44,460 nt of DNA from Thermodesulfovibrio sp. (GTDB taxonomy: Bacteria > Nitrospirota > Thermodesulfovibrionia > Thermodesulfovibrionales > UBA6898), in contig PNOC01000027.1 in NCBI GenBank assembly GCA_013824615.1, forward strand, positions 1-44,460. The letters are read 5' to 3'. Under the pieces are notes generated by a model that was given only the letters and a program-made list of their open reading frames with translations, was not told the origin of the DNA and ran no database searches. The first letter of the stretch is position 1; each line of letters starts with the position of its first letter. Position numbers and translations under genes: made by a program. Shown here piece by piece: positions 2,518-26,368 of the stretch.

Positions 2518-2524
2518 ATCTTCC

Positions 2525-2827: not shown

Positions 2828-2828
2828 T

Positions 2829-7572: not shown

Positions 7573-7614
7573 ATTTTTGTTATCCCAGATCTCGACATTG
7601 GATTCGTCGCCATA

Positions 7615-8874
7615 TTACCGGTTCGGGCAGGCCTTTGCTGATATATGCTCTTCAAACTCCGGCCTGAAGTGCTTTATGAAGTTCTGAACAACAGAAGCAG
7701 CCCCATCGCCAAGCGGGCAGAACGTCTTGCCGACCATATTCGCGGCAATTGACAACAGAAGATCAATATCTCCGCTGGCGCCTTCACCCTTTTCAATCCT
7801 GCCCAGAATGCTCCTGAGCCATCCGGTGCCTTCCCGGCAGGGAGTGCATTTCCCGCAGGACTCATGCTCAAAAAACTTCAGAGCCCGGTGACAGACCTTC
7901 ACCAGACAGACAGACTCGTCCATGACGATTACCGCACCTGACCCGAGCATGCTTCCGTGTTTCGGCATATTAACAAAGTCCATCGGACAGTCAATTTTAT
8001 CAGGAGGAAGCACCGGCGTCGAGATTCCACCGGGAATAACAGCCTTCAGTTTTTTTCCGCCCTTAATCCCGCCGCAGTGCGTGTAGATTATATCCTTCAG
8101 CGTGGTTCCCATAGGCAGCTCATAAACACCGGGGTGCTCAATATGCCCGCTCACGCAATAAATCTTGGGACCCGGGCAGTCGGCACTCCCGATCTTTGCA
8201 TAGGCCTCGCCACCGATTTCAATAATATAGGGCAGGTTCGACAGGGTCTCAACATTATTCACAACAGTCGGCTTGGCAAACACACCCACGTTGACCGGGA
8301 ACGGTGGTTTGATTCTCGGCTGCCCCTTATCGCCCTCAAGCGACTCGATCAGCGCCGTCTCTTCACCGCAGATATAGGCCCCGGCTCCCTGATGTACCGC
8401 AAGATGAAATTTCACACCCTTGTTAAGTATATTGTCTCCGAGAAGGTTGTCTGCATAGGCCTGTTTGATAGCCTTGTTAAGAATATCTTTTGCAGCAGGG
8501 TATTCCCCCCTGAGATATATAAAGCCGTATTCAGACCCCAGCGCATAACCTGAAATTACCATCCCCTCTATAAGAACATGAGGATTTTTTTCAAGTATAG
8601 GCCTGTCTTTGAATGTCCCCGGCTCTCCCTCATCAGCATTGCAGAGCAGGTACTTCGGGAACTTGGGGTCGGCCGAGGCAAAAGTCCATTTCATGGCCAC
8701 CGGGAAGCCTGCACCGCCACGTCCCCTGAGCCCGGCCTTCTTCACCTCATCGATAATCGACTTGGGGTCTTTGCCCAGCACCTTCTGAAGACTGGTATAG
8801 CCGCCGACTTTCTTGTATTCGCTGATATCAGCTGAGTTCGGATTCTCTATGTTTTTTAACAGGACATTTGCCAT
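7615..8874 (-). CDS. nuoF: NADH-quinone oxidoreductase subunit F
   Basis: NADH-oxidising flavoprotein of complex I: it binds NADH and FMN and passes electrons to cluster N3. It has 419 residues, the normal family length. The FMN/NADH glycine-rich motif GRGGAGFP lies at residues 51-58 and AYICGEETALIESLEG near residue 165. An SLBB domain is followed by the N3 ligand motif ESCGKCTPCREG near residue 336 with a further cysteine in KTFCPLGDGA. It is directly preceded by nuoE, whose stop codon ends at 8875. Confidence 0.97.
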   Translation of the reverse strand: MANVLLKNIENPNSADISEYKKVGGYTSLQKVLGKDPKSIIDEVKKAGLRGRGGAGFPVAMKWTFASADPKFPKYLLCNADEGEPGTFKDRPILEKNPHVLIEGMVISGYALGSEYGFIYLRGEYPAAKDILNKAIKQAYADNLLGDNILNKGVKFHLAVHQGAGAYICGEETALIESLEGDKGQPRIKPPFPVNVGVFAKPTVVNNVETLSNLPYIIEIGGEAYAKIGSADCPGPKIYCVSGHIEHPGVYELPMGTTLKDIIYTHCGGIKGGKKLKAVIPGGISTPVLPPDKIDCPMDFVNMPKHGSMLGSGAVIVMDESVCLVKVCHRALKFFEHESCGKCTPCREGTGWLRSILGRIEKGEGASGDIDLLLSIAANMVGKTFCPLGDGAASVVQNFIKHFRPEFEEHISAKACPNR

Positions 8875-9345
8875 TTATTGGTATTTTCCCAGAATCTCTT
8901 CAATGTATTTTTCTGTCAGGTTTTCGTAAAAATCGTCATTCACCAGCATCGCCGGCGCTGTGCCGCAGGCACCGATACATTCCATGATAACCAGGGAGAA
9001 CCGATTGTCAACAGTGGTGCCCCCGGGCTCAAGTCCATATTTATTTTTCAGAAAATCGACCAACTTTTCCGCACCCAGGATCATGCAGGATACATTGGTG
9101 CAGAGCTGCACGACATGCCTGCCCATCGGCTTGTTCTTATACATCGCATAAAACGTTCCAACACCGCGGGCGATGGCAGGGGGAACCCCCAGCAAGTCTG
9201 AAACAGCTGCATACGCCTCCGGAGAAAGCCACCCGAACTCCCGCTGGGCAACATAAAGCGCAGGCAGCAGGGCTGCCCGTGCTGTCGGGTAGTTCTGCCT
9301 GATCTCATCAATTTCCTGTAGTGCTGTCTGGCTCAATATCGTCAT
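8875..9345 (-). CDS. nuoE: NADH-quinone oxidoreductase subunit E
   Basis: Thioredoxin-fold [2Fe-2S] subunit (cluster N1a) of the complex I NADH module. I chose the ATG at 9345 (MTILSQTALQEI, 156 residues). The open frame continues upstream to 9459, but that extension would overlap nuoD and adds sequence unlike the family. Cluster ligands are C82, C87, C123 and C127. The segment YVAQREFGWLSPEA is typical of the N-terminal helical domain. It is a paralogue of the NuoE-like half of the receiver fusion at 15044-15973. Confidence 0.95.
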   Translation of the reverse strand: MTILSQTALQEIDEIRQNYPTARAALLPALYVAQREFGWLSPEAYAAVSDLLGVPPAIARGVGTFYAMYKNKPMGRHVVQLCTNVSCMILGAEKLVDFLKNKYGLEPGGTTVDNRFSLVIMECIGACGTAPAMLVNDDFYENLTEKYIEEILGKYQ

Positions 9346-9382
9346 AGTAGTCTTCTTCTTTTCCTGTCCTTTGTCCGTCCTG

Positions 9383-10585
9383 CTACCGGTCGCATTCGCC
9401 GAGCACGATGTCAATCGTACCGATATTGGCGATAACATCAGCCAGCAACCCGCCCTCACACAACCTCGGCATCACCGAAGCATGCACAAAAGACGGGGCA
9501 CGGACCCTCATCCGATAAGGCTTCCCTGTCCCGTCACTGATGAAATAGAACCCGAGTTCTCCCTTGGGGACCTCGGTGCCGACATAAACCTCGCCCTCTG
9601 CTACCGTCGGGCCCTTGGTGATGAGAATAAACTGATGTATCAGATGCTCCATATCCTTCATGACCAGGTCTTTCGGCGGGAGGGTGAATTTCGGGGCCTC
9701 TGCCATGACAGGACCGGCGGGAAGGTTCTCGATACACTGCTGTATGATTTTGTTGGCCTCCCGCATCTCGCCGACCCTGACCAGATAGCGGTCATAACAA
9801 TCGCCTTTAACGCCGACCGGGACTTTAAAGTCAACCTTATCGTAGGCATCATACGGTGCATACTTGCGGACATCATAATCAACACCTGAGCCTCGCAGGG
9901 TACCACCGGTCAGTCCCCAGTTTATGGCCTCCTCTGCCGAGATGATGCCGACATCGACCGTCCGCTCTTTCCAGATCCTGTTTTCGGTGACCAGCGTTTC
10001 ATAGTCATCCATTCTCGAGGGGAAATCAAGGACAAAGGCATATAGTTCATCCAGAAACTGCTGAGAGATGTCGTTGCGCACACCACCAATTCGTGGATAA
10101 CTGACTGTCAGACGCGCACCGCAGAGAATCTCAAAAAGATCCAATATCTTTTCCCGTGCGGTCATCGCCAGCAAAAACGGCGTGGTAGCCCCAATATCCA
10201 GAACATGAGTCCCGAGCCAGACAATATGGCTTGACAGTCTGCCCATCTCTGCTACCATCGTTCTTATAAACTTTGCCCTCTCCGGAGCCTCGATGCCAAA
10301 AAGCTTCTCGACCGCGTTGACATAGCCGACATTGTTATTCATGGACGAAATATAGTCCAGCCGGTCACTCAAAGGTAGAGCTGCAAAATAGGTCTTGTTC
10401 TCACCTAACTTCTCGATTCCGCGGTGAAGATACCCGACATACGGGGTGCATTTGACAACGGTCTCACCATTCAGGTCAAGGTCCAGCCTGAGAACACCAT
10501 GCGTGGCCGGATGCTGCGGCCCCAAGCTGACCGTCAGCTGCTTTGTTTCGAATGTAGTCTCTGTATCGTCGAATAAATTATCCAT
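9383..10585 (-). CDS. nuoD: NADH-quinone oxidoreductase subunit D
   Basis: 49-kDa-type subunit of complex I, evolutionarily related to the large subunit of [NiFe] hydrogenases and forming the quinone site with NuoB. From the ATG at 10585 ([10 protein letters not shown]) it has 400 residues; a TTG-initiated extension to 10621 is possible but less likely. The motifs [14 protein letters not shown] near the N-terminus and [12 protein letters not shown] nearby are family hallmarks, and [13 protein letters not shown] closes the protein. It is not fused to nuoC, unlike in E. coli. Confidence 0.96.
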
Positions 10586-10636
10586 TATCTCTCTTATGCC
10601 AGCGAGCGCACTGCCTTGCAAAGCAGGGGGAGGCGG

Positions 10637-11176
10637 TTATCCATGCCACTCATATTTTTTATACTGCTCAGCTCGATCAAGCACATCGACAAACCCCGGC
10701 CATTCCTGGTCAGGGCCTGGTCCCTTCAGCGGGTAGTCTTTTCTGAGCGGGTAACCTTCCCAGCCCTCAGGAAGCAGTATCCTCCTCAGGTCGGGATGTC
10801 CGGTAAAGGTAATGCCAAAGAGGTCAAAACACTCGCGTTCATGCCAGTTGACCCCGGCCCAAACCGGCAATACCGAATCAATCACCGGAGATGCCTCCGC
10901 AACCTCGGCCTTCAGGACTATCCTGTGCCGGTGCCTGATGGAGTAAAGATTATAGGCAACTGCAAAACGGTTCTCTTTTTTACCCAAGTAATCAATGCCG
11001 AACAGGTCTGCAGGGAAATCAAAGAACAGTGACGGCTCATCATGCAGATACCGGCAGAGCTCGACGATGCGAGCTTTTTTCACGGTAACCGCAACCTGCC
11101 CACGGAACTCCCTGATATCAAGGACTTCGTCCGGAAACTGCTCTTTTATCTCATCAGCTATTTTTAGTGGTTCCAT
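10637..11176 (-). CDS. nuoC: NADH-quinone oxidoreductase subunit C
   Basis: 30-kDa-type subunit of the complex I connecting arm, 179 residues. It carries no redox cofactor but stabilises NuoD and NuoB. The family signature WHERECFDLFGITFTGHPDL and the C-terminal segment EGYPLRKDYPLKG are both present near residues 111-153. It stands as its own gene upstream of nuoD with a gap of about 50 bases, and about 64 bases downstream of nuoB. Confidence 0.96.
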   Translation of the reverse strand: MEPLKIADEIKEQFPDEVLDIREFRGQVAVTVKKARIVELCRYLHDEPSLFFDFPADLFGIDYLGKKENRFAVAYNLYSIRHRHRIVLKAEVAEASPVIDSVLPVWAGVNWHERECFDLFGITFTGHPDLRRILLPEGWEGYPLRKDYPLKGPGPDQEWPGFVDVLDRAEQYKKYEWHG

Positions 11177-11240
11177 TTTATGTTTTACCCGTACTGCGTT
11201 TTTGTACGTAGACGCCCTTAAACGCTATAAAGCAGGGCAT

Positions 11241-11768
11241 CTATCTCCATCGGCTCCAGTGGAACTGCTCCCTCATCATCTTTTCCTGGAGCTTGATAAT
11301 TCCCTCAATAAAGGCCTCTGGCCTCGGCGGGCACCCGGGGATATAGACATCGACAGGAAGGAACGTATCGCACCCCTGCACCGTACTGTACGTATTGAAT
11401 ATGCCACCGCTGTTGGCACAACTCCCGACCGAGATGACGTACCGGGGTTCGGGCATCTGATCATACACGCGTCTGACGACTTCGGACATTTTCTTTGTCA
11501 CGGTGCCGGCTACAAACATAAAGTCCGACTGCCGGGGAGAACCACGCGGGATGATACCCATGCGGTCCAGGTCATTATGGCTGGCATAGACCGCCATCAT
11601 CTCGATGGCGCAGCAGGCCAGTCCGAACGTCATCGGCCAGAGAGATGAAACACGGGCCCAATTGATGACCTTGTCAAAAGACGTTATGACAATATTCGGA
11701 GCAAGGATCTTTGTCCCTTCTTCAGCCTCGACGAGCGACAGTGCTGTCGGAGAGGTTATCAATCCCAT
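11241..11768 (-). CDS. nuoB: NADH-quinone oxidoreductase subunit B
   Basis: PSST-type subunit carrying cluster N2, the terminal Fe-S centre that reduces quinone. It has 175 residues. The four N2 ligands are visible: the tandem C52-C53 in [11 protein letters not shown]117 in [10 protein letters not shown] and C146 in [10 protein letters not shown]. The first codons overlap the end of nuoA by 10 bases (11759-11768), supporting the ATG at 11768 and coupled translation. Confidence 0.97.
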
Positions 11769-12115
11769 ACAAATGCCTCTTTTCTCCAGGCATAGATATA
11801 GCCTATGAGCAATATGACGATAAAAATTATCATCTCGATGAATGCGTAGAGCCCTATGGCATCAAACACCAGAGCCCAGGGATATAAAAAAACTGCTTCA
11901 ACATCAAACACCACAAAGAGCATGGCTATAATATAAAACTTGACCGAAAACCTTACGTGTGCATTGCCCACCGGCTTGTTGCCCGACTCGTACGGCATCA
12001 GCTTTTCAGCGTAAGGCCTTTTGAGTCTGAACAACTCTCCGAGTAACAGGGAGCCGATTCCGAAGGCCGTAGCGGCCATAAGAAAAAGTAGAACCGGCAA
12101 ATATTGAGACGGCAT
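11759..12115 (-). CDS. nuoA: NADH-quinone oxidoreductase subunit A
   Basis: Small membrane subunit of complex I with three helices, first gene of the operon. I chose the ATG at 12115 ([12 protein letters not shown], 118 residues). It matches the family N-terminus and leaves a short leader of about 19 bases behind the -10 element at 12141-12146. An ATG at 12130 is in frame but would sit almost at the expected transcription start. Conserved segments are [20 protein letters not shown] and [14 protein letters not shown], the latter with the conserved acidic residues of the TMH1-2 and TMH3 region. Confidence 0.93.
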
Positions 12116-12140
12116 AAAAGTTCCGGGCATGACGTTATAA

Positions 12141-12169
12141 TTTATATTAAAACGAGACTGAGAAGTCAA
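12141..12169 (-). promoter_or_regulatory. Sigma-70-type promoter of the nuo operon
   Basis: On the minus strand a TTGACT -35 element (12164-12169) is followed by a 17-base spacer and a TATAAA -10 element (12141-12146). This is a near-consensus vegetative promoter. The predicted transcription start near 12134 gives a leader of roughly 19 bases to the nuoA ATG at 12115. The surrounding DNA is very AT-rich on the upstream side (12171-12200), which could act as an UP element. Confidence 0.7.
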
Positions 12170-12235: not shown

Positions 12236-13822
12236 ATGGATATGCTTGTTAAGAAATCATTGCACTCGCTGACGGGTAAACTCCTCCTTACCATCGGGAC
12301 GCTGATGATCGTCGGGAGCACGATATTCTGGTACTTTCTCTTCCGGCATCAGGAAAAAGAACTTCTCGAGAACTCGGTCAAGTACGCCTACTCGTTCGTC
12401 GACTATATCAAGAAGAGTACGCACTACGGCATGATTACAGCTCAAAGCGTGCTGATACAGCAGACCATCGAGGCCATCGGGTCGTCGGAAGGAGTCCTGA
12501 GCGTCAGAATTTTTGACTGCACCGGAAAGATCGCCTATTCTTCCAAAAGCGATGAAGCAGGCGTGCGAATGAAGAAAGACAGTCCTTCCTGTGTCCGCTG
12601 TCACGGCACCGGCCTCAGCCCGTCTGATAAGCCGGTGGTTTCGTTTATCCGTAACAGCGAGAACAAGCGCGTCCTGAATATCATGCATCCCATTTACAAT
12701 GAGCGGGCGTGCTATACTGCCTCCTGCCATTTTCATTCCAGGGACCAGAAAATGCTGGGACTGGTCGAGGCAAATGTATCACTGGCCCATCTGGACAAAA
12801 GTATTCAACAGCAGGGTATTGCTATAACCATGTATATTCTGATATTCCTGTTCGTGATATCGATCGCCCTCTGCACCATCCTCTGGAATCTGGTATCGAC
12901 CCCTGTCAGCCTTCTGAAGCAGGGCATGGAGCGGGTAGCCGGCGGTGATCTTGACTACACGCTGGACATCAGGACAAAGGATGAAATGGGAGATCTCGCC
13001 CGGGCCTTCAACGCCATGACCTCAGACCTGAAGAAAACCAAGGTTGAGCTCGTCGAATGGGGCAACACCCTCGAGAAAAAAGTCCAGGAAAAAACCCAGG
13101 CAATCCACATGGCACAGGCACAGCTCATTCACTCTGAAAAGCTGGCCTCTCTCGGAAGAATGGCTGCCGGTGTTGCTCACGAAATCAACAGTCCCCTGAC
13201 CGGTATTGTGACCTTCGGACACCTGCTTCTGAAACGCTTTCCTCCCGGAACTCAGGAACGGGAAGACGTTGAGGTGATCATTGAACAGGCAAACCGCTGC
13301 TCGAATATTATCAAAGGCCTGCTCGGGTTTGCCCGGGCTTCAGCAGCCGAAAAAGCTCCGACAAATGTCAACGATGTGCTGGACCGTTCCCTTAACATCG
13401 TAAGGAATAAGGCGGACTTTTTCAACATCAAGCTCATCACGGAGTTTGACGAGTCTCTGCATCGCGTCAAGGCCGATGCCTCGCAGTTGCAACAGGTATT
13501 TACCAATATGATTATCAATGCAGCCGATGCAGTCGAAGGGAAGGGAACCATTACGGTTATTTCCAAGAACATTACTGACGAAGGCCAACCTGTTGCCGAG
13601 ATAGAGTTCCGCGACACCGGAACCGGCATCAGTCCGGAGAATATCGAGAAAATATTTGAGCCGTTCTTTACGACTAAACCGGTAGGCAAAGGGACTGGCC
13701 TGGGCCTTGCCGTCAGTCACGGCATTATCCAGGACCACGGCGGCAAACTGCTGGTCAACAGCAAAATGGGAGAGGGTACAAGCTTCTTTGTGCAACTTCC
13801 CGCATACAGGGAAGAGGTATGA
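12236..13822 (+). CDS. Membrane histidine kinase with periplasmic di-heme c-type motifs
   Basis: Sensor kinase of 528 residues. Transmembrane helices lie at about 15-36 and 196-220. The periplasmic domain between them carries C119-V-R-C122-H123 (CX2CH) and C159-x4-C164-H165 (CX4CH), which are covalent heme-c attachment motifs; CX4CH is known from tetraheme cytochrome c3. A HAMP domain (about 219-272) and a coiled coil lead to HisKA with phospho-acceptor H315 in the HEINSP motif. A HATPase domain follows ([17 protein letters not shown] and [12 protein letters not shown]). It likely senses periplasmic redox state through heme. The stop overlaps the next gene by 4 bases. There is no clear ribosome binding site, and the ATG at 12242 is an alternative start. 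Confidence 0.9.
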
Positions 13823-14196
13823 GCAAAGGCAGAATACTGGTTGTCGACGATGAGGATATCGTCAGAACAAGCTGCAGCCGGACCCTCGTACCAGAAGGAT
13901 ATGAGGTAACCCTCGTCAAAAACGGATTTGACGGACTGGCCCTGCTTGAGCAGGGGCCTATTGATCTTGTACTGACGGACCTGAAGATGCCGGAAATCGA
14001 TGGCATTGAAATCCTGCGCCGGGTCAAAGAAAAGTGGCCCCAGGTTGAAGTAATTATCATCACCGGCTATCAGACCGTTGATACGGCGGTCAAGGCGATA
14101 AAACTCGGGGCCTTCGACTACCTCGAAAAACCGTTCACCCCTGATGGTCTTATCGCATCGGTAGCAAAGGCGTTTGCTCACAAAAAAACGGCATAG
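13819..14196 (+). CDS. Stand-alone receiver (REC) response regulator
   Basis: CheY-like single-domain receiver, 125 residues. It has the acidic pocket D10-D11, phospho-acceptor D54 in VLTDLKMPEIDG and the conserved lysine in YLEKPFTP near residue 104. No output domain is present, so it probably acts by protein-protein interaction or as a phosphate relay or sink. It overlaps the kinase gene by 4 bases (ATGA), which makes it the obvious first partner of the heme kinase. Confidence 0.92.
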   Translation: MSKGRILVVDDEDIVRTSCSRTLVPEGYEVTLVKNGFDGLALLEQGPIDLVLTDLKMPEIDGIEILRRVKEKWPQVEVIIITGYQTVDTAVKAIKLGAFDYLEKPFTPDGLIASVAKAFAHKKTA

Positions 14197-14225: not shown

Positions 14226-15002
14226 ATGGAAAAGAAGGGGAAGGTTTTAGTACTCGATGACGACCCTGTCGTTACACTCAGCTGCAAGAGAATCCTCGGC
14301 GCAGAAGGGTACAATATCGTCACAGCCAACAGAGGCGAGGATGCCATCAAGAAAATCTCGAATGAGGAATTCGACCTTCTGATATCCGACGTCAGACTCC
14401 CTGATATAAACGGGATCACCGTCCTGCGGGAAACAAAACTGATCCAGCCAAAGCTGGATGTAGTCATTATTACCGGCTATCCGACACTGGAGGACGCAAA
14501 GGAGTCAGTCACCCTCGGCGCCTTCGAGTTTATAGAAAAGCCGTTCACCCCCGAGTTCATGCTGAACGTCGCGGGAAAGGTCTTCGACAATAAGGGCTGG
14601 ATCCTCAGAAAGGCCTTTATCGACGAATTCAGAAATGATATTGTTTCATTGCGGGATACGGCAAATCCGGTCCTGTTCTATAAAGAAGGGACCTGGGCCC
14701 GGCCACTCACCAACGGCATGTGGGAAATAGGCTGCGATGTACGGTACTGGCTGCTCAGCGGACAACTGACGTATGTTGATATGCGCACTGACCTGAAAGC
14801 CGTTATGGCAGGAGAATCCTTCGGAAAGATTATTTCCGGCGGCGGCAGGGAGGAAGACCTGGTGTCCCCGATGTCCGGAAGGATCGTGGAAATAAACAAG
14901 GAGGCGAATGCAGCCATGAGCGCACTCGTCCGCGATAACCTCAGTGAGGGGTGGCTTCTCTGGCTGGCCCGCGTTGAGCCGCTCTCGACAGCCCACGTCT
15001 AG
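14226..15002 (+). CDS. Receiver domain fused to a GcvH-like (lipoyl-less) domain
   Basis: A 258-residue protein with two parts. Residues 1-125 are a REC domain (D11-D12, phospho-acceptor D55, lysine in EKPFTP). Residues about 150-252 resemble the glycine-cleavage H protein, including a barwell-like segment ending FGKIISGGG, then LVSPMSGRIVEINKEAN and EGWLLWLARVEP. In true H proteins the lipoylated lysine lies about seven residues after the FG pair; here the position is glycine (near G206), so lipoylation is not expected. A strong Shine-Dalgarno sequence (GGGAGGA) precedes the ATG. The function is unknown; an adaptor role in the phosphorelay or oxidoreductase is inference. Confidence 0.8.
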   Translation: MEKKGKVLVLDDDPVVTLSCKRILGAEGYNIVTANRGEDAIKKISNEEFDLLISDVRLPDINGITVLRETKLIQPKLDVVIITGYPTLEDAKESVTLGAFEFIEKPFTPEFMLNVAGKVFDNKGWILRKAFIDEFRNDIVSLRDTANPVLFYKEGTWARPLTNGMWEIGCDVRYWLLSGQLTYVDMRTDLKAVMAGESFGKIISGGGREEDLVSPMSGRIVEINKEANAAMSALVRDNLSEGWLLWLARVEPLSTAHV

Positions 15003-15043: not shown

Positions 15044-15973
15044 ATGGCAGGACCCAGGATATTGATAGTTGATGATGAACCTGTTGTTATAAAAAGCGCA
15101 GAGCGGGTGCTGAGAAGCGAAGGCTACGACGTTGAAGGCGCTGCCGGTGGGCGGGAGGCGATCCTCAAGCTTGAAAAGGGCGGCTATGACCTCGTCTTTA
15201 CCGATCTTAAGATGCCTGAGGTCGACGGATTGACGCTCATCAAGTGGATCAGAAAATCCTCTCAGGTAATCGGCATCGTCATTATCACCGGCTATCCGTC
15301 ACAGGATACCATAAAAGACGCCCTTGAACTCGGGATCATAGATTACGTGCCAAAGCCTTTCACCCCGTCAGTCCTGCTCGACGTTACGGCGCGGGCAGTC
15401 GAATGGACAGAAGGCCGGAAATCCAAAGAGGAATCGGCTGGTGAGGAATTCCCTCCTGCCATGGCAGCTGAACTGGACCGGGTCATCCAGCAATATAAAA
15501 ACAGGCCGGGAAGTCTTATCCCGGTTCTGCAGCGTGCCCAGGAGATTGTAGGGTACCTGCCACCCGTGGTGCAGAGAAGGATCTCGAGGGGATTGAATAT
15601 CCCGGTGGCTGAAGTTCACGGCGTGGTATCCTTCTATTCTTTTTTTACCATGAAACCGCGGGGAGACCATAATATACGGGTATGCCTCGGGACGGCGTGC
15701 TACGTCAAGGGAATTGAAGCTGTGACAAGTAAGATTAAGGATGTCCTGAAGATAGATATAGGGGAAACAACAGAAGACAGAAAGTTCTCCCTCGAAGGAG
15801 TACGCTGCCTCGGGGCCTGCGGCCTTGCACCGGTCATGGTCATCGATCAGGAAACCTTTGGAGCCATGTCAGCGAAAAAGGCCCTGGAAATCATCGGCCG
15901 CTATGACCAGTCCGCTGTCGGAGCGGCAGTGACCGAGGAAGCAGAAGCAGACCTGACGGGAAAGGAGAATTAA
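15044..15973 (+). CDS. Receiver domain fused to NuoE/HndA-type [2Fe-2S] subunit
   Basis: A 309-residue fusion. Residues 1-120 are a REC domain with D10-D11, phospho-acceptor D54 (FTDLKMPEVDG) and the PKPFTP lysine. Residues about 141-290 are a NuoE/HndA-like thioredoxin-fold subunit, with helical segment RAQEIVGYLPP and cluster ligands C214, C219, C255 and C259. NuoE-type subunits carry cluster N1a beside the NADH/FMN subunit. Here that subunit is covalently linked to a phosphorylatable receiver, so phosphorylation could alter electron flow or assembly; this is inference. AGGAGG precedes the ATG. The next three genes encode matching HndB, HndC/NuoF and NuoG partners. Confidence 0.88.
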   Translation: MAGPRILIVDDEPVVIKSAERVLRSEGYDVEGAAGGREAILKLEKGGYDLVFTDLKMPEVDGLTLIKWIRKSSQVIGIVIITGYPSQDTIKDALELGIIDYVPKPFTPSVLLDVTARAVEWTEGRKSKEESAGEEFPPAMAAELDRVIQQYKNRPGSLIPVLQRAQEIVGYLPPVVQRRISRGLNIPVAEVHGVVSFYSFFTMKPRGDHNIRVCLGTACYVKGIEAVTSKIKDVLKIDIGETTEDRKFSLEGVRCLGACGLAPVMVIDQETFGAMSAKKALEIIGRYDQSAVGAAVTEEAEADLTGKEN

Positions 15974-16384: not shown

Positions 16385-18262
16385 ATGGAAAAGTTTCGGG
16401 CAAATTTAATGCTCTGTGCGGGGACCGGCTGTGTTGCCAGCGGCAGCGCGAAGGTGCATGCTGCGCTCCGTGATGAAATAAAAAAGAGAGGGCTTGAAGA
16501 CGAACTCAAGATAGTCCTGACCGGCTGCAATGGCTATTGTGCCGAAGGCCCTGTTATGGCGGTCTATCCGGATGAGATCTTTTACCAAAAATTAACCGTC
16601 GAGGATGTCCCCACCCTGGTCGAAGAGCATTTTCTGAAAGGCAGGCCCTATCAGAAGCTGATGTTCAAGGAACCGGAGAAAAAGACTGCCATTCCGTTAA
16701 TGAAAGATATCCCCTTTTTCAAACATCAGGTCCTGCGGGTTCTGAGAAATAAAGGGCTTATTGATCCTGAGAAGATCGAAGAGTACATTGCACGCGATGG
16801 GTACCTGGCAGCGGCAAAGGCGCTCACCGAGATGACTTCCGAGGATATTATCAAGGTGATCAAGGACTCCGGAGTCCGCGGCAGAGGCGGTGCCGGTTTC
16901 CCCACAGGCATGAAATGGGAATTTGCTTCCAAGGTCAAATCAGACATCAAGTTCATGCTCTGCAATGGAGACGAAGGCGACCCCGGTGCCTTCATGGACC
17001 GGTCGGTCATGGAGGCTGATCCTCATTCAGTCATCGAAGGCATGATCATCGGCGCCAAGGCTATTGGGGCCCATCATGGATTTATATATGTCAGGGCAGA
17101 ATATCCGCTCGCCGTACAGCGCCTCCAACTGGCAATAGACCAGGCGACCGAGGCCGGCCTGCTCGGCAAGAATATTCTGGATACCGGCTTTGATTTTGTG
17201 CTTGAGATATATCTGGGTGCCGGGGCTTTTGTCTGCGGCGAGGAAACCGCGCTGATGCGTTCGATTGAAGGAAAACGCGGCATGCCAAGACCACGCCCCC
17301 CCTTCCCGGCCGTTAAAGGCTTATGGGACAAACCATCAGTATTGAATAACGTAGAGACCCTGGCCCAGATATCCCCTATTATCCTCAATGGGGCCGGTTG
17401 GTACCGAAGCCTCGGGACAGAAAAGAGCGCCGGCACCAAGGTATTTGCCCTCACGGGCGCTATCAGCAATGTCGGCCTGGTTGAAGTCCCGATGGGCATT
17501 CCGCTCAGGACCATCATCTATGACATAGGCGGCGGGCCCAAGAAGGGCAGAACATTCAAGGCAGTGCAGCTCGGTGGACCTTCGGGAGGCTGTATCCCTG
17601 AAAGTCTCCTGGATATTCCTGTGACCTACGAAGATATTCAGGCAACCGGAGCCATTGTGGGTTCAGGCGGCATGGTTGTCATGGACGATAATACCTGCAT
17701 GGTGGGAACAGCAAAGTTTTTCCTTGAGTTTACGGCTGATGAGTCCTGCGGAAAGTGCGTCCCCTGCCGCGTCGGGACCAAGATTCTTCTGGATATTCTT
17801 ACTGATATAACTGAAGGCAAGGGCAAGGAAAGCGACATAGAAACCCTTGAAGACCTCGCACGGGATATTCTGGCATCGTCTCTCTGCGGTCTCGGGCAGA
17901 CAGCCCCCAATCCTATTCTTACGACCATAAAATACTTCAGGGACGAGTATGAATCGCATATCGTACATAAGTGGTGCAAAGCCGGCGTATGCCGCGACCT
18001 GACCACGTTCTGGATTGACGAAAAGATGTGTAAGGCCTGCGGGGCCTGCCTGAGGGCCTGTCCTTCCAAGGCCATCGTTGGAGAGAAGAAGGTCCCTCAC
18101 AAGATCATCCAGGAGCTTTGTGTCAACTGCAGAACCTGTTATGACACCTGCAAGTTCAACTCGATAAGAATTCTCCCTGCCGGCTTTGAGGGAGATCCCT
18201 ATGAATTCCTGGGTATCGGCGCTGCAGCGGCAACAACAGGCGAGAAGAAGGGAGATGCATAA
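16385..18262 (+). CDS. HndC/HydB-like NADH-binding flavoprotein (NuoF with extra Fe-S domains)
   Basis: A 625-residue diaphorase-type subunit. Residues 1-95 form a thioredoxin-like [2Fe-2S] domain (C11, C16, C48, C52). The NuoF core follows, with GRGGAGFPTGMKW for FMN/NADH, FVCGEETALMRSIEG, an SLBB region and ESCGKCVPCRVG with a later cysteine in SSLCGLG for a [4Fe-4S] cluster. The C-terminal 80 residues add a two-cluster ferredoxin (CKACGACLRACP and CVNCRTCYDTCK). This layout is that of HndC/HydB subunits of soluble, often electron-bifurcating complexes, and not of complex I NuoF. A strong AGGAGG precedes the ATG, and the stop directly abuts the next ATG. Confidence 0.92.
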   Translation: MEKFRANLMLCAGTGCVASGSAKVHAALRDEIKKRGLEDELKIVLTGCNGYCAEGPVMAVYPDEIFYQKLTVEDVPTLVEEHFLKGRPYQKLMFKEPEKKTAIPLMKDIPFFKHQVLRVLRNKGLIDPEKIEEYIARDGYLAAAKALTEMTSEDIIKVIKDSGVRGRGGAGFPTGMKWEFASKVKSDIKFMLCNGDEGDPGAFMDRSVMEADPHSVIEGMIIGAKAIGAHHGFIYVRAEYPLAVQRLQLAIDQATEAGLLGKNILDTGFDFVLEIYLGAGAFVCGEETALMRSIEGKRGMPRPRPPFPAVKGLWDKPSVLNNVETLAQISPIILNGAGWYRSLGTEKSAGTKVFALTGAISNVGLVEVPMGIPLRTIIYDIGGGPKKGRTFKAVQLGGPSGGCIPESLLDIPVTYEDIQATGAIVGSGGMVVMDDNTCMVGTAKFFLEFTADESCGKCVPCRVGTKILLDILTDITEGKGKESDIETLEDLARDILASSLCGLGQTAPNPILTTIKYFRDEYESHIVHKWCKAGVCRDLTTFWIDEKMCKACGACLRACPSKAIVGEKKVPHKIIQELCVNCRTCYDTCKFNSIRILPAGFEGDPYEFLGIGAAAATTGEKKGDA

Positions 18263-20731
18263 ATGATCGTTGAACTGACTATTAACGAAAAGAAAGTATC
18301 CGTTGAAGAGGGGACAACCATCCTGAAGGCTGCCCAGCAGAACGGAATAAAGATACCGAACCTCTGTTTTGACAAGCGGCTCAGACCCTATGGAGGCTGC
18401 AGGCTCTGCGTTGTTGAGGTGGAGGGCCAGCCCCGCCTCTTCGCATCGTGTTCAACGCCGGTTGCACCTAACATGATCGTAAAGACAGATACGCCAAAAT
18501 TGAAGAAGGCACGGCAGACGGTCCTCGAACTTCTGCTGGTCCATCATCCACTCGACTGCCCGATCTGCGACAAGGCAGGCGAGTGCGATCTGCAGGACCT
18601 TGCGTTTGAATTCGGAAAGCCTGAAGGAAGGTTCCTGCGCCACCGCAAAGCAATGCCGCCGGATGTGAGGGGCCCTCTCGTTGAACTGACAGCAAATCGC
18701 TGCATCCTCTGCGGAAAGTGTGTAAGAATATGTTCCGAGCACCAGGGCAGAGGGGCACTCGGCCTCATAAACAGAGGCTTTTCGACTGTGGTACAGCCTG
18801 CCTTTGGCGAAATACTTGAATGTGACTATTGCGGTCAGTGCATTGATATATGCCCGACAGGGGCGCTTCTGAGCAAACCGTTCAAGTTCCAGGCCCGTGC
18901 CTGGTACCTTGAAGAAAAAGATACAACCTGCCCCTTCTGCGGCTGCGGGTGCACCCTGACCCTCGGCTTGCGAGAAGGCAAGATTCTCAGGGCCCGGGGC
19001 AAGGAAGATACCGGCAGAAATGATGGAAATCTCTGCGGACGGGGCCGCTTTGGTTTTGACTATATCTACAATGAGAGCCGGCTGAAGAGCCCTATGATCC
19101 GAAAAGATGATGTCTTGACCCCGGTATCCTGGGACGAAGCACTTTCGTATATCAGCGACAGGCTAAAATCTATTATGGCCACAAAAGGGAAAAATTCGGT
19201 TGGAGCAATCGGCTCACACCGGTGCACCAATGAAGACAACCATATGCTGAGGAAGTTCATGCAGCAGGTGGTCGGCTGCAACAATATGGATTCGGCAGCC
19301 GCCTTTGGGTATGCAAAGGTGCAGAAAGCCCTCAAGAAGGCTTTTGGTACCACGCAGCACCCCATCCAGATGAAAGCCCCTTTGGGTAAAGACCTGATTT
19401 TTGTTATTGAGTCAGACATAAGCATCACCCACCCGGTCTTCGGGTTGAATATGCTCCAGGCAAAGAGGGAAGGAGCAAAACTTATCGTTGCTGATTCGAG
19501 AGGAACAAAGCTGACACGCCACAGTTCTGCATATCTGAAAATGCAGCCAGGCACCTCAGTCGCGCTGCTTAACGGGATATGCCGGATCATCCTTGACAAG
19601 GGACTCTTCAACCGGGAAATTGTTTCAAAAATGGCCGGTTTTGCAGATTTCGAAAAAAGTCTCGGCAACTATACCACCGACAAGGTTGCCGGGATAACCG
19701 GTATTTCTGAGCAGGAACTTGGCGAAACTGCGGTTGCGCTCGCAGAAGCAAAAAGCAGGATGCTCTCATTCACGGTCAGTTTTACTGAAAACAGCAAAGG
19801 GACCGACCTGGTCATGGCTGCAGCAAATCTGGTAATCCTCCTGGGGGAGGATGTAGATGCGCTTCAGATCCCGGCTGAATATGCGAACACCTATGGGCTA
19901 TATTCTGTTGGACTCAGGCCGGATGCCGATGCTCCTGACGGGAAGGATATCTTTGAGATGCTCTATGAAGCTGATGCGGTCAGGGCGCTTTATATCATGG
20001 GGGAAGACCCTGTCTCGTCATTCCCGTATAATACAAAACTCTGCAGCAATCTGAAAAACCTTGACCTGCTGGTCGTGCAGGATATAGCGATGACCGAAAC
20101 AGCCAAGTTAGCTCATGTTGTGCTGCCTGCTGCTGCCTGGGCCGAAAAAGACGGCACATTTATTAATGCTGAAGGGGTATCTCAAATTGCCAGGAAAATT
20201 ATTGATGCTCCGGGGCAGGCACTCCCTGACTGGCAGATCCTCAGGAACCTCTCGCTTGCCATGGGAAAGGAAATCTCGGTCAGAAGTGTTGCAGACGTTA
20301 CAGCCGAAATTAACGCTGCAATCCGGGACGAAAATATTCCTGACACACGGATCTTCCAGCCGGTTGCTTATACGCCGGGGGAAGAACCTGACGCTGAATT
20401 TCCTCTGGCACTGGTAACCAGAGATGTACTCCAGCATTCCGGCAGCATGACGACACGGTCCAAGTGCCTTGACCTTGTCGTTTCCGAGACCTTTCTTGAA
20501 ATCGGAGAGCAGCAGGCAAGGGAACTGGGAGTCGCTGACAACAGTTATGTCCGTGTGTCCTCCAGAAGAGGAAGCGTCTTTCTCAAGGCAAAGATATCAG
20601 ATACCATTCCCTCAGGCAGGGTATTCGTCCCGCTGCATTTTCCCCATGGAAAGGTAAATGCACTGACCTATCCGGCCTCGAACGGCACGGCAGGCACTGA
20701 TGCAGTGAAGATCGAACCGGCAAAAGGCTGA
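18263..20731 (+). CDS. NuoG/FdhA-like large Fe-S subunit without formate dehydrogenase catalytic residue
   Basis: An 822-residue paralogue of the window's own NuoG. It has a [2Fe-2S] domain (C35, C46, C49, C63), a His-Cys site (HHPLDCPICDKAGEC), a two-cluster ferredoxin (C147-C157 and C187-C197), a [4Fe-4S] site (C223, C226, C230, C258) and a molybdopterin-oxidoreductase-like fold. The FDH catalytic Cys/Sec-His is replaced by G349-Y350, exactly as in NuoG, and the neighbouring arginine is also lost (SAAAFGYA). It is therefore unlikely to oxidise formate. It probably completes a soluble NuoEFG-like complex with the preceding genes. Whether it binds a pterin cofactor cannot be told. A strong terminator follows. 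Confidence 0.85.
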   Translation: MIVELTINEKKVSVEEGTTILKAAQQNGIKIPNLCFDKRLRPYGGCRLCVVEVEGQPRLFASCSTPVAPNMIVKTDTPKLKKARQTVLELLLVHHPLDCPICDKAGECDLQDLAFEFGKPEGRFLRHRKAMPPDVRGPLVELTANRCILCGKCVRICSEHQGRGALGLINRGFSTVVQPAFGEILECDYCGQCIDICPTGALLSKPFKFQARAWYLEEKDTTCPFCGCGCTLTLGLREGKILRARGKEDTGRNDGNLCGRGRFGFDYIYNESRLKSPMIRKDDVLTPVSWDEALSYISDRLKSIMATKGKNSVGAIGSHRCTNEDNHMLRKFMQQVVGCNNMDSAAAFGYAKVQKALKKAFGTTQHPIQMKAPLGKDLIFVIESDISITHPVFGLNMLQAKREGAKLIVADSRGTKLTRHSSAYLKMQPGTSVALLNGICRIILDKGLFNREIVSKMAGFADFEKSLGNYTTDKVAGITGISEQELGETAVALAEAKSRMLSFTVSFTENSKGTDLVMAAANLVILLGEDVDALQIPAEYANTYGLYSVGLRPDADAPDGKDIFEMLYEADAVRALYIMGEDPVSSFPYNTKLCSNLKNLDLLVVQDIAMTETAKLAHVVLPAAAWAEKDGTFINAEGVSQIARKIIDAPGQALPDWQILRNLSLAMGKEISVRSVADVTAEINAAIRDENIPDTRIFQPVAYTPGEEPDAEFPLALVTRDVLQHSGSMTTRSKCLDLVVSETFLEIGEQQARELGVADNSYVRVSSRRGSVFLKAKISDTIPSGRVFVPLHFPHGKVNALTYPASNGTAGTDAVKIEPAKG

Positions 20732-20742
20732 ACAGAACGCTT

Positions 20743-20787
20743 GACCGTCATGCCGGCTTGACTTCAGCCGGCATGACGGTCTTTTTT
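20743..20787 (+). terminator. Rho-independent terminator after the kinase-oxidoreductase operon
   Basis: A perfect 16-base-pair GC-rich stem (20743-20758 pairs with 20766-20781) with a 7-base loop is followed by six T residues. It lies 12 bases after the NuoG-like stop codon. It separates the oxidoreductase operon from the DRTGG/PHP genes downstream, which would then need their own promoter or read-through. Confidence 0.9.
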
Positions 20788-20848: not shown

Positions 20849-21226
20849 GTGCGATACCCTCAAGATATGACCTTGCGTGAAATTATGGATATACTCGGCG
20901 CAGAAATGCTTTCCAACAATGATGACGGAAAGATCGTCGTCGAAAACGTCTACTGCGCAGATCTCATGAGCAATGTTCTTTCGTATTCCATTACAAATTC
21001 TCTCCTGATAACGAACCTTACCAATGCACAGGTTGTGCGCACCGCTGATGTTGCGGATATCAAGGCCATAGTCTTCTGCAGGGGAAAAAAGCCTGAGCTT
21101 GGCACGATAATGCTGGCAGAAAGAAAAACCATCCCCCTGCTGGTGACCGGGCTGTCGATGTTCGAAGCATGCGGCAGACTTTATGAGAACGGGCTCAGGA
21201 GTGACAAAGACACTGGCAGGCAATGA
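20849..21226 (+). CDS. DRTGG-domain-like protein (first copy)
   Basis: Small protein of 125 residues from a GTG start, or 119 from the ATG at 20867 (MTLREIMDILGAEML). Neither start has a clear ribosome binding site. It resembles the DRTGG-type regulatory domain found alone next to [FeFe]-hydrogenase genes in clostridia and Thermotogae; the signature region is AIVFCRGKKPELGTIMLAERKTIPLLVTGLSMFEACGRL. No catalytic motif is visible. A weak promoter-like TTGATT-N17-TACCCT overlaps the GTG start and would favour the ATG. Its stop overlaps the next gene by 4 bases. The molecular role is unknown. Confidence 0.65.
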   Translation: MRYPQDMTLREIMDILGAEMLSNNDDGKIVVENVYCADLMSNVLSYSITNSLLITNLTNAQVVRTADVADIKAIVFCRGKKPELGTIMLAERKTIPLLVTGLSMFEACGRLYENGLRSDKDTGRQ

Positions 21227-21654
21227 CAAGCAGCTCTGAAGGGACTTTTTTTCTCACCGGCAAGGATTTTGTTAAGGCCGGGACTGCGTCAGGCAGCCTC
21301 AAGCGGGTCCTTGAAGATATGGGGGTTCCGTCTGCGGTTGTTCGTCGGGCCGCCATCGCCGCTTTCGAGGCGGAAATGAATACAATCATCTATGCTGTTG
21401 CAGGTATAATGCATTATTATGTGACCGCGGAAATGATCAAGGTCGTTATACAGGATATGGGACAGGGGATCGAAAACATTGAACTTGCCATGACAGAGGG
21501 ATATTCTACCGCACCTGATTATATACGTGAGATGGGGTTTGGTTCAGGCATGGGTCTCCCCAATATAAAAAAAAATGTGGATAAATTTATGCTGAGCTCT
21601 GTATCCGGGGAAGGAACAACGCTGGAATTTATTATTAATCTCGAAAAAACCTGA
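21223..21654 (+). CDS. RsbW-like serine/threonine kinase or ATP-binding protein
   Basis: A 143-residue GHKL ATPase of the anti-sigma factor kinase type. The N-box lies near residue 48 (AFEAEMNTIIYA), the G1 box is DMGQGIEN and the G2 box GFGSGMGLPNIKK. It has no dimerisation histidine domain and so is not a complete sensor kinase. Homologues of this kind sit between DRTGG genes in hydrogenase-associated clusters. It overlaps the preceding DRTGG gene by 4 bases and is 14 bases before the second DRTGG gene. Its substrate is unknown. Confidence 0.82.
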   Translation: MTSSSEGTFFLTGKDFVKAGTASGSLKRVLEDMGVPSAVVRRAAIAAFEAEMNTIIYAVAGIMHYYVTAEMIKVVIQDMGQGIENIELAMTEGYSTAPDYIREMGFGSGMGLPNIKKNVDKFMLSSVSGEGTTLEFIINLEKT

Positions 21655-21668
21655 TAAAGGAGTACTGC

Positions 21669-22010
21669 ATGATACTGCAGCAACTGGTAGACAGCCTGTC
21701 TCTCGAAGTATTAACAGAGGGTGCGGATCTGATGCGTGGGGTCTCCGGTGGGTATGTCAGCGACATGATTTCTGATGTCATAGGCAATGCACGGGAAGGA
21801 CAGGTCTGGATAACCTTTCAGGTCCACCTCAATATTGTTGCTGCAGCCTCCCTGAAAGGCCTGTCAGCCATCATCATGGTAAACAACCGCAGACCCCTTC
21901 CGGAAACTCTGCAGCGGGCCTCGGAAGAAAACGTCGTCATCATGACAACGTCACTCCCTGCCTTTGATCTTGTCGGCCTCCTTTATGACCTTGGCCTGAG
22001 ATGCCGGTAG
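21669..22010 (+). CDS. DRTGG-domain-like protein (second copy)
   Basis: A 113-residue protein weakly similar in layout to the gene at 20849: an N-terminal helical segment, YVSDMISDVIGNAREGQVWI in the middle, AAASLKGLSAIIMVNNRRP, and a C-terminal LVGLLYDLGLRCR that matches the RLYENGLR end of the first copy. I assign it to the stand-alone DRTGG-like group. AAAGGAG precedes the ATG. The 3' end overlaps the PHP gene by 10 bases. Confidence 0.65.
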   Translation: MILQQLVDSLSLEVLTEGADLMRGVSGGYVSDMISDVIGNAREGQVWITFQVHLNIVAAASLKGLSAIIMVNNRRPLPETLQRASEENVVIMTTSLPAFDLVGLLYDLGLRCR

Positions 22011-22741
22011 AGTTTATAGCTGACCTTCATCTCCACACCTGCCTGTCTCCCTGCGCCGAGCTTTCCATGACACCAAAGGGAATTGTCGAAAAGGCTTCTT
22101 CCCTGGGGATAAATATTCTGGCAGTATGCGATCACAATTCCGCGGAGAACGTTGCCGTGACCAGAGACCTGGCAAGGAAAAAAGGGATCTTCGCCGTTGC
22201 CGGAATGGAAATCTGTTCTGCGGAAGAGGTCCATCTGCTCAGCCTCTTTGATACTATTGAGGAAGCGTTCAAAATGCAGGAGATTGTCTATGAGCATCTT
22301 CAGCCCGGCGCAAATGATGAAAATGCCTTTGGCATGCAGGTTGTTGTCAATGCCGGGGATGAAGTGCTGGACTTCAACAAAAGGCTCCTTATAGGGGCAA
22401 CCAGCCTCTCTGTGGACAGGATTGTTGAACTGATACACAGTCTCAACGGCATTGCTGTTGCAAGCCATATCGACAGAGAGGCCTTCGGCATTATAGGGCA
22501 GCTGGGGTTTATAAGCCCGGAAATCCCCTTTGACGCCCTTGAAATTTCAGGCCGTACATCCTTTGACCAGGCTCTGTTGCAGTATGAGGCCTACCGTCAG
22601 ACCCCGTGGATAACGTCATCTGATGCGCACCTGCTGGAAGAAATTGGCAGACGGACCACCCGTTTTGTGATGAACCATGCGACTTTTGAAGAATTATCTC
22701 TTGCGCTCCGGGGCATTGACGGAAGGCGCCTTTACTTCTGA
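22001..22741 (+). CDS. PHP-domain metal-dependent phosphoesterase
   Basis: A 246-residue member of the polymerase and histidinol phosphatase (PHP) superfamily. Metal-binding motifs are visible in order: HLHTCLSPC near residue 11, AVCDHNSAEN near residue 44, a glutamate in GMEICSAEE, ASHIDRE near residue 153 and SSDAH near residue 208. Such enzymes hydrolyse phosphate esters or nucleotides; the substrate here is unknown. Stand-alone PHP genes recur in the DRTGG/ATPase/NuoE clusters of [FeFe]-hydrogenase loci. It starts inside the end of the preceding gene. Confidence 0.85.
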   Translation: MPVEFIADLHLHTCLSPCAELSMTPKGIVEKASSLGINILAVCDHNSAENVAVTRDLARKKGIFAVAGMEICSAEEVHLLSLFDTIEEAFKMQEIVYEHLQPGANDENAFGMQVVVNAGDEVLDFNKRLLIGATSLSVDRIVELIHSLNGIAVASHIDREAFGIIGQLGFISPEIPFDALEISGRTSFDQALLQYEAYRQTPWITSSDAHLLEEIGRRTTRFVMNHATFEELSLALRGIDGRRLYF

Positions 22742-22747
22742 ACGTTC

Positions 22748-23287
22748 ATGGAAGATATCTCCCTTCATATTCTTGACATCGCTGAAAATTCTGTTGCTGC
22801 CGGCGCCACGGTCATAGCCATTACGCTTGTTGCTGACGAAGATAGGGATATTCTCACGCTCAAGATAGACGACAATGGCAGGGGAATCCCGGCTGAGATC
22901 CTGGGGCAGGTCATGGACCCCTTTTATACCACGAGGACCACGCGCAAGACCGGGTTCGGACTGTCACTGCTTTCCCAATCCGCCAGAGAAGCAGACGGTG
23001 ACATACTGATCACCTCGGCCGAAGGCAAAGGCACACAGATATCTGCTTATTTCAGGAGCAGTCATGTTGACCGAAAGCCTCTGGGCAATCTGGCTGATAC
23101 GTTTTCAGTCCTTATTGCAGGCAATCCTGATATTGATTTTATTATCACCTGCAGTCTGAAGGGAAAAGAGTGTCAGCTTGACACACGCTTGCTCAGGGCG
23201 GACCTGGAAGAGGTACCCCTCAATGCCCCTGACGTAATTGCGGCAATTAGAAAATACCTGAAGAAAGCTCTGACAGGCCTGAACTAG
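22748..23287 (+). CDS. GHKL ATP-binding protein (histidine kinase-like ATPase domain only)
   Basis: A 179-residue protein. Its first 105 residues form a HATPase_c domain: N-box HILDIAENSVAAGA, G1 box DDNGRGIPAE, and G2 box TRKTGFGLSLLSQSA. The last 70 residues (from about GNLADTFSVLIAGNPDIDF) are not a recognised receiver or kinase domain. No phospho-acceptor histidine domain is seen. It begins six bases after the PHP gene and closes the small cluster. In hydrogenase loci such a gene normally lies directly upstream of the NuoE-like gene. Confidence 0.8.
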   Translation: MEDISLHILDIAENSVAAGATVIAITLVADEDRDILTLKIDDNGRGIPAEILGQVMDPFYTTRTTRKTGFGLSLLSQSAREADGDILITSAEGKGTQISAYFRSSHVDRKPLGNLADTFSVLIAGNPDIDFIITCSLKGKECQLDTRLLRADLEEVPLNAPDVIAAIRKYLKKALTGLN

Positions 23288-25360: not shown

Positions 25361-26368
25361 ATGAAAAAAAGGCTTATCATCACGCTATTGGCAACTATAT
25401 TCATTATGGGTACTCTCAGCAGTTCTTATGCTGTTTCATCGTATCTGAGCAGCTTCAGCAGTACATATCCGGCGTCGGGAAGTTCATCCTTCAGCTGTTC
25501 ACTATGCCACACAAACGTTCCAACCCGCAATGCATACGGCGCTGCATATGGCTCAGGCCATAATTTTAACACTATAGCATCCCAGGATTCTGACGGGGAT
25601 GGCTTTACCAATCTGGCAGAGATCACGGCAGGAACAAACCCCGGAGACGCCGCGAGCAAGCCGGCAGCCCCGGCAGCCTGTACCTCGTACACCTACTCAG
25701 CCTGGTCGGCCTGCCAAGCTAACAATACCCAGACCAGAACGGTAGCAACAAAATCACCTGCCGGCTGCACTGGAAATCCAGCTGCATCATTACTGACTCA
25801 GGCCTGTGTTTATGTTCCGCCGGTTACGGCCTGTACCTCGTACACCTATTCAGCCTGGTCAGCCTGTCAAGCTAACAATACCCAGACCAGAACGGTAGCA
25901 ACAAAATCACCTGCCGGCTGCACTGGAAATCCAGCTGCATCATTACTGACTCAGGCCTGTGTTTATGTTCCGCCGGTTACGGCCTGCACGTCTTTTACGT
26001 ACTCAGGATGGTCAGCCTGCCAAACTAACAATACCCAGACCAGGTCTGTTGTCTCAAGCTTGCCCGCTGGATGCACCGGCGGAACCCCACTGCTGACCCA
26101 GATCTGCAATTATGTTCCACCGGTTACGGCCTGCACGTCTTTTACGTACTCAGGATGGTCAGCCTGTCAAGCTAACAATACCCAGACCAGGTCTGTTGTC
26201 TCAAGCTTGCCTGCTGGATGCACCGGCGGAACCCCGCTCACTTCCCAAGCCTGCAATTATGTCCCTCCCACGCCTGGAAATCCGAGGTTGATATCTCCGG
26301 CATCAAGTGGATTATATTGGGACAATGTCAACCAGGTAATGATTATCGGAGGTACTGCAGGAGACTAA
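25361..26368 (+). CDS. Secreted CXXCH protein with TSP1-like tandem repeats
   Basis: A 335-residue secreted protein. The signal peptide covers residues 1-24 (ending SSSYA). The mature N-terminus has a single heme-c motif, CSLCH, near residue 47, then a calcium-binding-like DSDGDGFTNLAEITAGTNPGD (thrombospondin type 3 style) near residues 73-93. Four tandem repeats of 49-51 residues start at residue 107, each with a W-SAC...TQTR...AGCTG...C pattern that resembles thrombospondin type 1 modules. A short tail (NPRLISPASSGLYWD) ends the protein. Such architecture suggests a cell-surface or extracellular protein; redox activity is inferred from the single heme motif. AGGAGGAG precedes the ATG. Confidence 0.8.
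   Translation: MKKRLIITLLATIFIMGTLSSSYAVSSYLSSFSSTYPASGSSSFSCSLCHTNVPTRNAYGAAYGSGHNFNTIASQDSDGDGFTNLAEITAGTNPGDAASKPAAPAACTSYTYSAWSACQANNTQTRTVATKSPAGCTGNPAASLLTQACVYVPPVTACTSYTYSAWSACQANNTQTRTVATKSPAGCTGNPAASLLTQACVYVPPVTACTSFTYSGWSACQTNNTQTRSVVSSLPAGCTGGTPLLTQICNYVPPVTACTSFTYSGWSACQANNTQTRSVVSSLPAGCTGGTPLTSQACNYVPPTPGNPRLISPASSGLYWDNVNQVMIIGGTAGD
25679..26275 (+). repeat. Four in-frame tandem repeats (2 x 153 bp, 2 x about 147 bp)
   Basis: Units begin at 25679, 25832, 25985 and 26132, each at a cysteine codon. Units 1 and 2 (153 bases) differ at only about three positions by eye. Units 3 and 4 are similarly close to each other but diverge from 1 and 2 at the DNA and protein level. This points to two rounds of duplication, the last quite recent, and copy number may vary between strains. 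Confidence 0.9.

Follow-up and report, generated by a model that had tools for sequence, protein, structure and literature searches.

The window, i.e., the whole stretch of 44,460 nucleotides analysed here, harbours a tight operon with the gene order kinase, stand-alone receiver (REC), REC–GcvH-like protein, REC–NuoE fusion, thioredoxin-like (Trx) [2Fe-2S] protein, NuoF-type subunit (NuoF') and NuoG-type subunit (NuoG'). The following features were recognized in and around this operon:

592–12169, minus strand: complex I operon, transcribed divergently, that encodes a NuoE (8875–9459), NuoF (7615–8874) and NuoG (4972–7572) of its own; membrane subunits were named by inspection
12236–13822, plus strand: membrane histidine kinase with a periplasmic Cache-like sensor, followed by HAMP, HisKA and HATPase domains
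13819–14196, plus strand: stand-alone receiver of 125 amino acids (PF00072, 111.5 bits); its start overlaps the kinase stop
14226–15002, plus strand: REC–GcvH-like protein, with mostly glycine at the lipoyl-lysine position
15044–15973, plus strand: REC–NuoE fusion gene (309 amino acids, ATG start)
15059–15382, plus strand: receiver domain of the fusion, residues 6–113, with D10, D11, D54, T82 and K104
15383–15475, plus strand: flexible linker of the fusion, residues 114–144, with high column entropy
15476–15904, plus strand: NuoE/HydC/BfuC domain of the fusion, residues 145–287, with [2Fe-2S] ligands C214, C219, C255 and C259
15975–16358, plus strand: thioredoxin-like [2Fe-2S] ferredoxin (NCBIfam 2Fe-2S ferredoxin match weak, below cut-off)
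16385–18262, plus strand: NuoF', a NuoF/HydB (BfuB)-type flavoprotein with a Trx [2Fe-2S] domain, an FMN/NADH domain and two [4Fe-4S] clusters at the C-terminus
18263–20731, plus strand: NuoG', a NuoG/BfuA-like subunit with conserved Fe-S cysteines, lacking the formate Cys/Sec and His
20743–20781, plus strand: strong terminator-like hairpin closing the operon (consensus match only)
20849–23287, plus strand: accessory cassette DRTGG, RsbW-like ATPase, DRTGG, PHP, HATPase

The fusion protein and its operon

The fusion gene is a single unbroken open reading frame, which encodes a complete CheY-type receiver and a complete NuoE/HydC [2Fe-2S] domain. The N-terminal domain matched the Pfam model Response_reg (PF00072) with 101.3 bits (E = 4e-29; cut-off 30.2), while the C-terminal domain matched 2Fe-2S_thioredx (PF01257) with 162.5 bits (E = 7e-48), far over the cut-off. 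The earlier note on this DNA described the receiver as complete, with D10, D11, D54 and the lysine of a PKPF motif, and listed the four cluster cysteines C214, C219, C255 and C259; all of these residues are located exactly at these numbers. The top PDB sequence match of the NuoE half was NiFe-HydC (7t2r_C). Foldseek searches with the fusion model retrieved FdsG, HydC and NuoE chains for the C-terminal part and receivers for the N-terminal part. The AlphaFold2 monomer consists of two confident domains connected by a disordered linker (pLDDT <50 at residues 127–135). The pTM of this model is 0.43; the orientation of REC relative to NuoE is undefined and the receiver is not placed near the cluster.

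The genes for NuoF' and NuoG' were each present 3' of the fusion in 85 of the 88 loci with enough sequence, and that for the Trx [2Fe-2S] protein in 65 of the 88. REC–GcvH was encoded directly upstream of the fusion in 69 of 111 loci. Upstream flanks of 7 kb or more were available at 74 loci, of which 31 had a kinase of the type found in the window upstream of the fusion. No recurrent catalytic partner gene was found near the module among the loci.

The REC–GcvH-like protein is the second receiver fusion of the operon, and its residues D11, D12, D55 and K105 are invariant in 85 homologues. The lipoyl-lysine characteristic of glycine cleavage H proteins is absent from this product: glycine occupies the corresponding site, 8 residues before a conserved proline in a register deduced from the known motif, in 83 of 85 sequences. 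The accessory DRTGG/RsbW-like ATPase/DRTGG/PHP/HATPase cassette is linked to the module in many relatives. NfnAB-like genes were located upstream of the fusion operon in 8–9 loci (e.g., L173, 5552–7814). Also, positions 25361–26368 of the window encode what looks like a secreted protein, which has a CxxCH-like motif at its N-terminus and several almost identical, Cys/Thr-rich repeats of about 50 residues.

The sensor of the kinase has a predicted Cache-like fold and contains two cysteine-histidine motifs, CxxCH (residues 119–123) and Cx4CHxH (residues 159–167), which were detected in 28 and 31, respectively, of 31 kinase homologues. Among 28 members of this sensor group, 22 matched PF21563 at E ≤ 1 (best 3e-7); the window copy scored 19.3 bits, below the cut-off of 27. 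Like those to PF21563, the matches of the sensor group to the Geobacter heme sensors 3b42 and 3b47 were weak but recurred, and 3b42 was also among the Foldseek hits. A CxxCH motif within a Cache fold is expected of sCache_heme domains, and CxxCH together with Cx4CHxH suggests that the kinase sensor may carry one c-type heme or two. When fused to signalling modules, heme-Cache domains resemble NO sensors, while stand-alone ones look redox-related (PMC12889525); the input of the kinase is therefore likely to be the periplasmic redox state or NO.

Conservation, distribution and origin of the fusion

The residues D10, D11, D54, T82, K104-P105-F106, C214, C219, C255 and C259 were invariant in 32 of 32 relatives. 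In a set of 102 distinct full-length fusions, D10 was kept in 102, D11 in 101, D54 in 100 and K104 in 101 sequences, each position of the receiver signature D10/D11/D54/T82/K104 being retained in 98–102 of them and each of the four cysteines in all 102. Mean column entropy was 1.26 bits in REC, 1.06 bits in NuoE and 2.41 bits in the linker. Conservation of REC at about the level of NuoE, which the linker does not share, together with retention of D54 and K104, argues for a working phospho-acceptor site in the fusion receiver. The suggestion of the earlier note that the fusion puts a phosphorylation switch on the subunit beside the FMN site thus gains support from this strong conservation and from the presence of a kinase gene in the same operon.

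Several variants of the fusion were encountered. Two of them, in L134 (7817–8683; D54N) and L135 (8413–9294; D11N, D54Y, K104A), combine a degenerate receiver with intact cluster cysteines. In five second-copy REC–NuoE paralogues (L129–L133), the receiver is followed only by the helical half of NuoE, the cysteine ([2Fe-2S]) half being lost; the genes of these truncated paralogues adjoin those for NuoF' and NuoG'.

The first search for relatives revealed near-full-length matches to the fusion in 46 of 61 genomes, the source genome of the window included. The search across the nitrospirotal class Thermodesulfovibrionia yielded matches in 159 of 230 genomes and 87 of 115 genera; these matches were mostly full length and included a few fragments or NuoE alone. 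The carriers identified by a scan of named genomes were Nitrospirota, namely metagenome-assembled genomes of Thermodesulfovibrionales/Thermodesulfovibrionia. In a sample of 396 Nitrospirota genomes, which comprised the class members, genomes from outside the class displayed, at the thresholds used, matches to the NuoE part or none, and no fusion. At the thresholds applied there, four further phyla (993 genomes in all) yielded unfused relatives only, i.e., those of L057 (Desulfobacterales; 345 genomes), L055 (Spirochaetes; 198), L066 (Desulfosporosinus; 249) and L111 (Chloroflexi; 201); fusions with strongly diverged domains could escape these thresholds.

Six candidates with long open frames from Desulfobacterota and Spirochaetota (G849, G755, G721, G714, G735 and G557) were read and proved to be unfused. 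An apparent fusion in Bacteroidales (L097, query residues 1–287) resolved into two separate genes, one for HydC followed by one for a PorX-like regulator. In a locus of the Desulfobacteraceae (L114, 4036–12456), an unfused NuoE/NuoF/NuoG-like set is flanked by genes for a kinase and two regulators of the NtrC-like type. The earlier note had considered that homologues might always have the two domains separate; this describes the situation outside the class, whereas inside it the domains are fused.

In the tree of NuoE domains, the fused forms were placed on one side of a branch with a support of 79, which is not decisive. In the receiver tree, the RECs of the fusion formed one orthologous clade (support 100) apart from the other receivers of the operon. 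The simplest account of these trees would be a single ancient fusion event, handed down within the class Thermodesulfovibrionia.

The probable NADH- and ferredoxin-linked module and its complex I relatives

The partners of the fusion were compared with the subunits of the Bfu family. The Nuo-Bfu kind of BfuABC was described by Schut et al. (2022; PMC9304861) and includes BfuB clades 38 and 39, the latter with Planctomycetes and Nitrospirae. The NuoE part of the fusion corresponds to BfuC, i.e., a NuoE-like protein with one [2Fe-2S] cluster (PF01257; four cysteines in 102 of 102 sequences). NuoF' aligned end to end with the bifurcating NiFe-HydB (7t2r_B; 825 bits). Of the domains of BfuB, i.e., Nuo51 FMN, SLBB, NADH_4Fe-4S and 4Fe-4S ferredoxin, it matched PF01512, PF10589 and PF00037 over the cut-offs, with SLBB below its own (20.1 versus 27). 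The ligands C438, H525, C531 and C536 of the B2 (bifurcation) cluster and the C-terminal cluster cysteines were present in 98 of 98 homologues; C536 and the C-terminal clusters are the better discriminators, as His and Cys are likewise found at positions 525 and 531, respectively, when NuoF from complex I of this lineage is aligned. The B2 ligand site C/T476 is T476 in the window copy.

NuoG' possesses the domains of BfuA, namely PF13510, PF00111 and Fer4 models (2Fe-2S and 4Fe-4S ferredoxin domains), and its N-terminal and cluster cysteines were kept in 89 of 89 homologues. It scored narrowly over the cut-off of the NADH-quinone oxidoreductase NuoG model TIGR01973 (474.1 versus 470.05) and failed the formate dehydrogenase model. 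The best PDB hits of NuoG' suggested a formate dehydrogenase complex. This candidate was rejected, as the active-site residues are missing in all relatives: glycine occupies the Cys/Sec position in 89 of 89 sequences and is followed by Tyr or Phe where His is expected.

Judging from these sequence features, the operon probably encodes a soluble BfuABC-type (HydABC/NuoEFG-like) NADH- and ferredoxin-linked module, for which we infer electron bifurcation. The NuoE/HndA assignment with an HndC-like partner, given in the earlier note, holds for the NuoE type; the Hnd-specific part is replaced by BfuC of the Nuo-Bfu kind, with a Bfu/HydB-type NuoF and a NuoG-like subunit as partners.

The module adjoins nuoA in the window and is located between nuoD and nuoE in L024. 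Genes of nuo operons were in view in 14 of the 60 loci with long flanks. The NuoG' protein is only 34% identical to NuoG of complex I. Another Nitrospirota lineage (f25) encodes an unfused NuoE'–Trx–NuoF' set inside its nuo operon, after nuoD, together with the DRTGG/PHP/ATPase cassette that is also present in the window; the NuoF tree resolves this lineage and the receiver-bearing operons as sister groups (support 88). A single nuo operon in L124 (1108–15950) contains two NuoEF sets, one standard and one Bfu-type, with a single NuoG, which suggests interchangeable NADH modules. The module from the window appears to match most closely the complex-I-linked Nuo-Bfu kind of the Bfu family. As its third partner, the quinone arm of the neighbouring complex I, or an acceptor of that sort, is the likeliest candidate. 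This is the weakest step of the assignment, and physical docking to complex I is at most a possibility, since nuo genes are nearby in just 14 of the 60 long loci.

Possible roles of the receiver and comparison with known systems

In Bfu enzymes, bifurcation, or the flow of low-potential electrons, is proposed to be gated by a movement of the cluster domain of BfuC (PMC9304861), so that a receiver attached to this subunit would be in a good position to serve as a gate or a docking switch. The reading we favour, with some reservation, is a Bfu/complex-I-type NADH–ferredoxin module that can be switched through a two-component phosphorelay, of which phosphorylation, heme binding and bifurcation are the parts we infer. 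The kinase sensor would read the periplasmic redox state (or NO) through its heme c, and the kinase would phosphorylate the receivers of the operon, including REC on NuoE. Phosphorylation may then favour or block one position of BfuC, and the resulting shift would switch the NADH/ferredoxin electron flow post-translationally. The narrower proposal, that this heme-c-sensor phosphorelay acts on the gating subunit and turns bifurcation itself on and off without transcription, is more tentative still. In favour of the preferred reading, the kinase gene heads the operon and overlaps the next receiver gene. The retained phospho-site and cysteines of the fusion, its receivers forming a single clade, the kinship of the kinase sensor with heme sensors, the B2 ligands of NuoF', the position of f25 in the NuoF tree and the two NuoEF sets of L124 speak for it as well. 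Weighing against it are the limited occurrence of the kinase (31 of 74 loci) and of nuo genes (14 of 60), the two fusions with degenerate receivers, the five paralogues that lack the [2Fe-2S] half, and the model with a pTM of 0.43, in which the receiver is not close to the cluster.

It is conceivable, if rather unlikely, that the receiver is a switch for assembly or docking and not a gate of electron transfer. Phosphorylation would then determine whether the NuoEF(G)-like module is built into a larger complex, such as complex I, where it would replace the resident NuoEFG, or forms another oligomer. Receivers commonly act via phospho-dependent dimerisation. The position of the module beside nuoA in the window and between nuoD and nuoE in L024, the unfused NuoE'F' within the nuo operon of f25 and the two NuoEF sets sharing one NuoG in L124 agree with such an assembly role. 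It is less easily reconciled with the minority of loci that have nuo genes in view and with the module having its own NuoG-like subunit, so distant from NuoG of complex I.

We assign a low probability to a reverse flow of information, with the NADH/ferredoxin module serving as a redox sensor that alters receiver phosphorylation, or with the fusion competing for phosphate with the other receivers of the operon. Such a sensor or phosphate sink would fit the presence of several receivers in one operon, NuoG' without a formate-type catalytic site, the lack of a recurring catalytic partner gene nearby, and the paralogues that lose the cluster half yet keep the receiver. However, the Fe-S and FMN machinery displays enzyme-like conservation, ferredoxin-side clusters included, and receivers usually serve as inputs to the domain to which they are fused.

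A structural or vestigial receiver that has lost its role in phosphorylation is less probable again. The fusions of L134 and L135 do persist with degenerate receivers, but D54 and K104 are kept in 100 and 101 of the 102 fusions, and the entropy of REC is close to that of NuoE and far from that of the linker. Finally, an assembly error or frameshift joining two neighbouring genes, a concern of the earlier note, can be dismissed, as nothing was found in its support and about 100 independent assemblies contain the same continuous reading frame, with 46 of the 61 genomes of the first search, many more of the class and 102 distinct sequences.

The REC–NuoE fusion is real and conserved, and apparently undescribed: no report of it was found in the open-access literature searched, and neither 'receiver' nor 'response regulator' occurs in the text of Schut et al. 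(PMC9304861). For electron bifurcation in HydABC-type enzymes, the proposed gate is a movement of the BfuC cluster domain. A classical phospho-switch on exactly this subunit, kept across a bacterial class, offers a testable handle on Bfu gating and on post-translational control of the NADH/ferredoxin balance in mostly uncultured anaerobes. Receivers normally switch genes; the fusion suggests direct switching of electron flow by phosphorylation in these little-studied organisms.

Among known systems, sCache_heme/Mcp40H-20 sensors (GSU0935/GSU0582; PMC12889525) share the Cache-like predicted fold and CxxCH with the kinase sensor, which differs from them in the additional, invariant Cx4CHxH and in the weak profile score of the window copy. 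NiFe-HydABCSL (7t2r) and [FeFe] HydABC (7p5h, 8a6t, 7q4v) align end to end with the module in BfuB and BfuC, but the module is devoid of hydrogenase subunits and of an H-cluster domain. The large subunit and NuoE/NuoF of NAD-dependent formate dehydrogenase (6tg9, 6vw7) are related overall to those of the module, whose large subunit lacks the active-site Cys/Sec and His. Nuo-Bfu enzymes (PMC9304861) have in common with the module a BfuB with FMN, Trx [2Fe-2S], B2 ligands and two C-terminal [4Fe-4S] clusters, a BfuC, and a NuoG-like BfuA without the formate site; the nearest sampled relatives (f25) are encoded inside nuo operons, which also include the accessory cassette. In contrast to Nuo-Bfu, the module carries a receiver on BfuC and is encoded in a separate operon with a kinase and further receivers, and the complex I of the host has its own NuoEFG. 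Response regulators with enzymatic output, such as REC–GGDEF, show the same arrangement of an N-terminal receiver, a flexible linker and a C-terminal output, but in the fusion the output half belongs to a redox complex of several subunits, in which it serves electron transfer. The fusion can be placed both with the Bfu/Nuo-Bfu enzymes and with those response regulators that have an unusual output.
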